A DNA stretch of 64,000 nt from Atribacterota bacterium (GTDB lineage Bacteria; Atribacterota; Atribacteria; Atribacterales; Caldatribacteriaceae), in the NCBI GenBank assembly GCA_039638595.1, contig JBDIWM010000004.1, forward strand, positions 1 through 64,000, given 5' to 3'. Positions 62,041 to 64,000 of this stretch are shown here, one piece after another. The position numbers and the translations under genes are program-made. The notes under the pieces were generated by a model that was not told where the DNA came from, made no database searches, and saw nothing but the letters and a program-made list of their open reading frames with translations. Numbering within the stretch: the stretch's first letter is position 1; every line of letters begins with the position of its first letter.

Positions 62041-62766
62041 TTACCTCTCCCTTCTCTCTCGATTCTCAAGGAATCGAATCAAATTCTCGTAGGAAGCATT
62101 GAGGATTCTGTCTCTGGGGAACCCCGTTTCCTGAAGCATATTCAGAGCCTCACCAAATTCTCCCACTTCCTCACAAAAATGAGCATCGCTTGAAACCAAA
62201 ATCCATCCTTTTCGCTTTTCAACTTCCCGGGCAATTGTCCGACAATTTTCTTTACTTCCCTTTCGGCTCACTGAAAAAGAACTGTTATTGACCTCGATTA
62301 TTTTACCTCTGACCACGGTCTCTTCCACAACCCTATTATAGTCCAGAGGAAACCGGGGATTTCCAGGATGAGCTACAATATCAACCATAGGGTTCTCAAG
62401 TGTGCGGAGTAACGCCTCGGTATTTTCTTCTCTCGTGCCCCCACGGAAGACCTGAGGATGAAAAGAGACGATAACAAAGTCGAGCTTGCGTAGCACTTTA
62501 TCATCGAGGTCAAGTCTTCCGTCAAAATCAACAATATCAACCTCGGCCCCAAAATAAACTCGAATTCCTTCAATCTCCTTAGGAAAGTGGCCTCGCGCCT
62601 CAAAGTACAGTGGCGAAGGCCCACCAGGCATGCTGGGACTGTGATCAGCAATTCCCAAAACCTTAAGACCTTTTTTCAAAGCGACATGAACATTTTCAAG
62701 AACCGTGCTGTATCCATGGCCACTGGCGATAGTATGAACATGCAAATCACCCCAGATTCTGACCAT
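62041..62766 (-). CDS. PHP-domain phosphatase (YcdX-like)
   Basis: A 241-residue PHP-fold metal phosphoesterase. Metal ligands are visible in GDLHVHTIASGHGYS (about 6-20), GIADHSPSMPGG (about 38-49), GAEVDIVDFDGRLD, FVIVSFHPQVFRGG (about 97-110), DIVAHPGNPRF (about 130-140) and VSSDAHFCEEVG (about 190-201). This set of ligands matches the YcdX/HisK-like phosphatase group. The substrate is not known. It lies 17 bp after the PGI-like gene and 4 bp before folD. Confidence 0.88.
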   Translation of the reverse strand: MVRIWGDLHVHTIASGHGYSTVLENVHVALKKGLKVLGIADHSPSMPGGPSPLYFEARGHFPKEIEGIRVYFGAEVDIVDFDGRLDLDDKVLRKLDFVIVSFHPQVFRGGTREENTEALLRTLENPMVDIVAHPGNPRFPLDYNRVVEETVVRGKIIEVNNSSFSVSRKGSKENCRTIAREVEKRKGWILVSSDAHFCEEVGEFGEALNMLQETGFPRDRILNASYENLIRFLENRERRER

Positions 62767-62783
62767 TCTTCGACCTCCATATT

Positions 62784-63983
62784 TTACCTGTCTTTTTTAA
62801 GAAACTTTCTTACCATGCCTTCAAACCCCGAAATCGGCGGATCACTCAGCAAATCCAGGCCCCGTAACCAGGCATTATAACAAGCCCATTGATGGAAAAA
62901 AGCCACCATCTGTCCTACCATTTCCAAGCCACTCTGGTGATAAACAAGCTCGAGCCACGAAATTCCTGCTCCTTGCAATAGCGAAAGGAGTGCTAAATTT
63001 TCAGCCTGATGCAACCGACAAAAAGAAACCCGGTTTAAGAGAGCCCATTCCTCAAAAAAGAACTCTTCTTGAAGCTGAGGGGGAAACCGAAAAGGCAAAC
63101 ACTGTTTATCTCCTTCGCTACGGATAACCACAAAAAGTGTCGAAGCCGAATCCTCTTTCCAGAACGACCAATCTCGACACGTATCCCAAAAGAAGAGAGA
63201 ATCCCTTACCTTGAAACCCATACTTTTCTCCCCCCGGCAACTCTTTTCCAAAAGTGGCAAAAATGACTGCAAAAGCGTAAGGAGGAACTGATTATCAACC
63301 AGAAAACATACCTCTTTCCATCCCACCTCATTCCGCAACAAAAGAAGAGACATGAGCATCGCTTCTTCTTGGAGAAGAGGATATCCTGCAATCAATCCTT
63401 GCTCCAATTCTTCCACCCTGATTCCCAAACATAAAAGCGGAAGATACAGGAGCGCCCCTCGATGCCAGAAATAATGATACCCATCTTCAACAGGAAAAAA
63501 AGGGTAAAAAATGATTCTGGCTGCTTCAGCTAAAATCCCATGAGCACTGCCTAAAAAAACCCTTTTCCAGGGAAAAACAAAACTGAGAGTAAGAAACTTA
63601 AACTCCTCTACGCGCCGGGAAAGAATGACTCCTAAGGTTTCTGCTGGAGGAAGACTGGTAATCAGTTTTTCTAAAAGCACAAGATCAGAGTCACTACAGA
63701 AATAGAAAAACTGATCCCCATTACCAGAGAGAACATACTCCCGAAAAAAATTCTGCAAAAAAAGGATTATTTCGCTGCTTCCCAAAAAAACCACGTTCCT
63801 GGAAAGACGAAGGACAGCACGATGAAAGCTGGCTAATTGTTCCAGATTGACCACCATATCCCGAAAAGGAGGCACAGGAAAGGTATGGCGTAAATTTCCA
63901 GCCTCTTTTTTAAGTGCTTCCATAGCAGGAAGAACCCGGACAAATTCTACTCGTATCCTTTTTCTTTTTTTCTTTCTCTCCAT
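62784..63983 (-). CDS. Degenerate phosphoglucose isomerase-like (SIS-fold) protein
   Basis: A 399-residue protein that appears colinear with bacterial glucose-6-phosphate isomerase. NVVFLGSSEIIL (63-74) sits where Pgi has VVGIGGSxLG. SDSDLVLLEKLITSLPPAETLGVI (97-120, in two parts) with SRRVEEFKF follows, where Pgi has SKSGTTxE. EDGYHYFWHRGALLYLPLLC and GIRVEELEQGL (166-197) stand at GGRxSVxxxVGLLP. The end (MVGQMVAFFHQWACYNAWLRG, in two parts, then GLDLLSDPP) stands at LGINPFDQPGVE. The sugar-phosphate and catalytic residues are mostly replaced, so catalysis is doubtful. The comparison is from memory. The frame is open to the right edge, so the start at 63983 is provisional. Confidence 0.5.
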   Translation of the reverse strand: MERKKKRKRIRVEFVRVLPAMEALKKEAGNLRHTFPVPPFRDMVVNLEQLASFHRAVLRLSRNVVFLGSSEIILFLQNFFREYVLSGNGDQFFYFCSDSDLVLLEKLITSLPPAETLGVILSRRVEEFKFLTLSFVFPWKRVFLGSAHGILAEAARIIFYPFFPVEDGYHYFWHRGALLYLPLLCLGIRVEELEQGLIAGYPLLQEEAMLMSLLLLRNEVGWKEVCFLVDNQFLLTLLQSFLPLLEKSCRGEKSMGFKVRDSLFFWDTCRDWSFWKEDSASTLFVVIRSEGDKQCLPFRFPPQLQEEFFFEEWALLNRVSFCRLHQAENLALLSLLQGAGISWLELVYHQSGLEMVGQMVAFFHQWACYNAWLRGLDLLSDPPISGFEGMVRKFLKKDR

Positions 63984-64000
63984 AACCCGTACTGGATACT

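Follow-up and report, generated by a model that had tools for sequence, protein, structure and literature searches.

The question raised by this locus is whether an uncharacterised protein encoded at the end of the window (here, the whole stretch of 64,000 nucleotides that was analysed) is a glucose-6-phosphate isomerase (Pgi), a relative of Pgi that has lost its activity, or a protein with another task. An earlier note on this DNA had read it as a Pgi homologue without an active site, encoded by an intact gene. The gene is indeed an uninterrupted open reading frame that starts at ATG and encodes 399 aa. We file the protein and its homologues as a pseudoenzyme family of Pgi descent, called pseudo-Pgi below. 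The gene and its immediate neighbours are as follows.

62784..63983, minus strand: pseudo-Pgi gene (399 aa), intact frame, ATG start
63947..64000, minus strand: 3' end of cimA (citramalate synthase, TIGR00977), a gene that runs past the window end; it overlaps the start of pseudo-Pgi by 37 nt
62041..62766, minus strand: PHP-domain gene, directly downstream of pseudo-Pgi

The pseudo-Pgi protein gave no Pfam or NCBIfam match, even at E = 10. The gathering score of PF00342 is not reached by the window protein, and 2 of 21 homologues match this model weakly (best E 0.07). An AlphaFold model made from two sequences had a pLDDT of 31.7 and did not confirm a double-SIS fold, and a scan of contigs with the protein as sole query returned the sister genome only. 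The 21 homologues that are complete or almost complete were aligned into a family profile (A1), and hhalign was used to compare this profile with true isomerases collected in sets from the same genomes. In this profile search, which the earlier note had proposed, A1 matched diverse Pgi with a probability of 98.2% over 312 columns and Tal-Pgi-type Pgi with 94.6%, and controls in which the profile on either side was reversed gave 0.1-0.4%. No significant match was found between A1 and the PGI/PMI group (1.5%) or, taken alone, the long "classic" Pgi from a different family within the phylum (0.8%). When the PDB (177,635 sequences) was searched with A1, four chains were found at E <= 10, all of them glucose-6-phosphate isomerases (best E = 1e-4). 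A wider genome search brought up Pgi of ~400 aa from another phylum, which match A1 at up to 2e-30; BLASTP of one of these against one pseudo-Pgi member gave E = 1.6e-18 over 337 residues, in a small database. Judged by the hhalign, PDB profile and BLASTP matches, the pseudo-Pgi protein is a homologue of Pgi, and the order of Pgi motifs that the earlier note had described was reproduced by a computed joint alignment.

Among proteins whose active site is intact, the ~400-aa Pgi of the other phylum are the nearest relatives of pseudo-Pgi. A tree of 48 proteins placed the pseudo-Pgi family and these short Pgi on one side of a branch with support of 100/99, and the other Pgi and the Tal-Pgi type on the opposite side. 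The branches are long and may attract each other, and we treat the apparent kinship with the short Pgi as a lead. The short Pgi themselves (L126:8195-9397, L127:7894-9099, L156, L158 and L159) carry the motifs GNGGS, ISKSG(N/D)T, HES, ESQHH and QPQVE, with 11 of 11 active-site residues in the two that were checked. Their nearest NCBIfam model is NF003016, their NCBIfam scores lie far below the cut-offs, and they may form a group without a name so far.

The active site of Pgi comprises (rabbit numbers) Ser159, Ser209, the loop 210-214, Arg272, Gln353, Glu357, His388, Gln511 and Lys518 (PMC9436075, PMC2176064). The residues at these positions were tallied from a joint alignment of the 21 homologues and 14 Pgi, short Pgi included. 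All 14 Pgi keep 11 of 11 active-site residues, whereas the homologues keep 0-4 and the window protein keeps 1 (S122), so that the loss claimed in the earlier note is borne out by a computed alignment. The aligned segments are these.

63768..63785, minus strand: LGSSEI, residues 67-72, aligned with the Pgi GxGGS loop (GIGGSA)
63594..63620, minus strand: SRRVEEFKF, residues 122-130, aligned with the phosphate-binding loop SKSGTTxET, (S/T)KSGxTxET
63465..63479, minus strand: YHYFW, residues 169-173, aligned with GGR(F/Y)S
63240..63257, minus strand: PLLEKS, residues 243-248, aligned with Q-L-x-A-E-S
63180..63188, minus strand: W266-T268, aligned with the QHS motif (ring-opening His388)
62820..62843, minus strand: DPPISGFE, residues 381-388, aligned with QPGVExxK

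The residues that replace those of Pgi are regular. At the GxGGS position the Gly-Gly-Ser is gone and the third Gly is Glu or Asp in 19 of 21 homologues; Ser159 is Ile in the window protein. In the phosphate loop, K210 is R and T214 is E, each in 19 of 21, and the window protein has SRRVEE in place of the pattern (S/T)-K-(S/T)-x-x-T. The Ser that follows Arg272 is Trp in all 21, and Arg272 itself is retained in 9. At the position of the catalytic base, Glu357, the homologues have E, R, K or Y, preceded in all 21 by an acidic residue; in the window protein the base is Lys247, and Gln353 is Pro243. The column of His388, in the region where the alignment is least safe, contains no His in any of the 21. 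Gln511 is Asp or Glu in all 21 and Lys518 is Asp or Glu in 19. Altogether, Ser159, Thr214, Gln353, His388, Gln511 and Lys518 are gone from 21 of 21 homologues. For the catalytic residues Glu357, Arg272, His388 and Lys518, whose mapping the earlier note had called for, the window protein has Lys, Tyr, Asp and Glu. The most divergent members, L022 and L023 (genomes G016 and G014; 28% identity), carry His in place of Lys518 and are without the DPP motif.

Two minor details of the first reading needed correction: the SKSGTT loop is replaced as described, but its first serine is kept in the window protein as S122, and the terminal GxxxxxxP segment is a conserved region, but one that corresponds to G357...P382. 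The Pgi segment GLLPAAxxGIxIxEL is aligned with LLYLPLLCLGIRVEEL in the window protein. Binding of another sugar phosphate, which had also been suggested, appears less likely because the phosphate-binding Ser and Thr residues are gone and the loop carries acidic residues. To judge from these substitutions, pseudo-Pgi almost certainly no longer performs the glucose-6-phosphate isomerase reaction.

Selection has nevertheless kept the gene. Informative genome pairs gave dN/dS values of 0.08-0.19 for pseudo-Pgi versus 0.04-0.06 for cimA, and purifying selection therefore acts on pseudo-Pgi. When 61 related genomes were searched, 22 matches were obtained; one is truncated at the end of a contig, the other 21 are complete or almost so, and the gene is always single-copy. 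By this search it occurs in 22 of the 25 genomes of one order of Atribacterota, or in 23 when G005 is counted, where its first 36 codons lie at a contig end; the absence from G005 was only apparent. The two genomes of the order without it are G010, a 60%-complete assembly, and G012, the sole genome of family f2. It was not found in the 25 genomes from the rest of the phylum, and viral contigs, scanned with the 21-homologue profile, yielded no relative. With dN/dS far below 1 and occurrence throughout the order, the view that the gene is not decaying has held. We infer that the class of sugar fermenters reported in PMC11227167 is the counterpart of this order. The catalytic motifs are gone and the gene is under purifying selection, which is what defines a pseudoenzyme.

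The position of the gene is also fixed. In all 21 loci cimA lies directly upstream, and pseudo-Pgi starts inside its end, with an overlap of 22-38 nt counted from the first ATG; in one locus the overlap is 58 nt from a mechanically called TTG start and 22 nt from the first ATG. The PHP gene comes next downstream in every homologous locus whose sequence covers that flank. The gene order is HAD - cimA - pseudo-Pgi - PHP - folD, then mostly yfcE - GH57 - glgC. NCBIfam identifies citramalate synthase, a HAD-IIA phosphatase, a PHP domain, YfcE and GlgC among these neighbours; the putative GH57 gene, which has no NCBIfam match, was labelled by reading its sequence. The genes further down (folD, yfcE, GH57 and glgC) are almost as constant as cimA, and an old operon alone may explain the order of pseudo-Pgi and cimA. 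In the JS1-side genomes checked, a CimA search gave distant, LeuA-like matches only; the co-occurrence of pseudo-Pgi and CimA is confounded with phylogeny and linkage and carries little weight. Just past the window end on the same contig (C4; L025:6500-9430), three genes that are intact in G014 are each interrupted by one frameshift: those for a SorC-type regulator, a dehydrogenase and a DapA-like protein. They represent a sugar-acid cassette in decay, unless the frameshifts are errors of assembly.

What the protein now does may be approached through the residues that it conserves. The eleven invariant columns in A1 are all Gly, Pro or hydrophobic/aromatic, and there is therefore no invariant candidate for a catalytic residue. 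The positions of E246 and D381 are acidic in 21 of 21 members, there is almost no variation at R123, E127, R156 and R374, and conservation reaches 90% or more for several charged residues. In eleven columns, 85% or more of the members have an acidic residue, and five of these columns are among the 28 that represent the Pgi active site (hypergeometric test, P = 4e-4, a post hoc value, framed after the substitution counts and with columns taken from known Pgi motifs). Conservation is higher up to three positions away from the active-site columns than elsewhere, to a degree matched by 5 of 399 circular shifts. The clustering of acidic columns at the former active site and the highly conserved charged residues would suit a new enzyme, in which E71, E126/E127, E246, D381 and E388, together with R123/R374, make up a rebuilt site, catalytic or metal-binding, that serves another substrate. 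However, no charged or polar column is identical in 21 of 21 members, whereas the active-site residues of Pgi are kept in 14 of 14 Pgi, and an invariant His, Cys or Ser is absent. We regard a new enzyme as the chief alternative to the reading preferred below, though rather unlikely.

The same genome was found to encode two other predicted isomerases, as the search for a second pgi suggested in the earlier note had anticipated: a Tal-Pgi-type Pgi of 562 aa with the intact loops SKSGNT, GGRYS and QPNVE (contig C5), and a PGI/PMI-type protein (PF10432; contig C82). Pseudo-Pgi is therefore not the sole isomerase candidate of the cell, and judged by its sequence it is no candidate. It might be a subunit that pairs with one of these true isomerases and alters its activity, since the active sites of Pgi are located close to the interface of the dimer (PMC9436075) and other enzymes are known to be activated when they form a heterodimer with an inactive homologue (PMC10211241). 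A PF00342 protein is also present in 18 of the 22 genomes matched, the other four being drafts that are 75-92% complete. This proposal seems quite unlikely, as the pseudo-Pgi gene is tied to cimA and to neither isomerase gene, and the protein groups with the short Pgi of another phylum and not with the Tal-Pgi type. It is highly improbable that pseudo-Pgi is itself still an active glucose-6-phosphate isomerase with shifted catalytic residues. Members from family f3 do retain Arg272 and have Glu at the base position, a state that may be an intermediate, but six active-site residues are gone from every homologue, the window protein lacks the base and Arg272 as well, and other isomerases exist in the same genome. 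The chance that the gene is a decaying pseudogene is practically negligible: its sequence diverges more quickly than those of the neighbouring genes (77% identity with the sister genome versus 91% for cimA) and three genes slightly further upstream are frameshifted in this genome, but the gene is intact in 21 genomes, single-copy, fixed in place and regular in its replacements, and the dN/dS values contradict decay.

The best reading, to which we give a probability of roughly 60%, is that pseudo-Pgi is an ancient Pgi-derived pseudoenzyme that serves as a non-catalytic partner or regulatory protein. This role is preferred because the family has no strictly invariant polar or charged residue and because its gene starts within cimA in every locus; we infer, in line with the earlier note, that the protein may be a "regulatory pseudoenzyme". 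It would descend from a glucose-6-phosphate isomerase whose length was probably close to 400 aa, as in the short Pgi. Isomerase activity would have been lost in the pseudo-Pgi lineage, presumably along with any other activity; the former active-site loops have been rebuilt in a conserved acidic and aromatic form, and selection maintains the protein. With its start codon inside the cimA frame, pseudo-Pgi would be produced together with citramalate synthase and would serve as a scaffold, a regulator or a partner protein. A metal, a cationic group or a partner's side chain might now occupy the old pocket as the putative ligand. That the pocket has become an acidic cation- or metal-binding site, either in a new enzyme or in a sensor that controls citramalate synthase, is a more specific idea that we consider doubtful; if the sensor were real, it would link hexose metabolism with isoleucine synthesis through control of citramalate synthase.

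Pgi is among the best-studied glycolytic enzymes, yet an inactive relative that extends across an order is unrecognised by Pfam and NCBIfam, and no Pgi-derived pseudoenzyme was found in the open-access papers searched. The conserved charge reversal of the old pocket and the fixed place behind cimA lead to clear, testable predictions.

Among known systems, bifunctional PGI/PMI is an isomerase of the SIS fold, and the PGI/PMI of this genome belongs to a group whose profile match to pseudo-Pgi is only 1.5%. The Tal-Pgi-type Pgi (NF007080-like) is, like pseudo-Pgi, a Pgi homologue, and differs from it in its length of 562 aa and its intact loops. The glucokinase regulatory protein GKRP, a double-SIS regulatory protein, is a precedent for a non-catalytic SIS protein. 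However, GKRP binds fructose 6-phosphate, whereas the phosphate loop is gone in pseudo-Pgi, and a GKRP-like role as a phosphate sensor was set aside for that reason. The short Pgi of another phylum (~400 aa; PF00342) have their length and motif order in common with pseudo-Pgi, and the C-terminal segments are alike (YLAVYSSLLREVNPFDQP in a short Pgi and YLACYSAWLREVDIFSEP in the pseudo-Pgi member L013); the two differ in the active site, which is intact in the short Pgi and gone in pseudo-Pgi.
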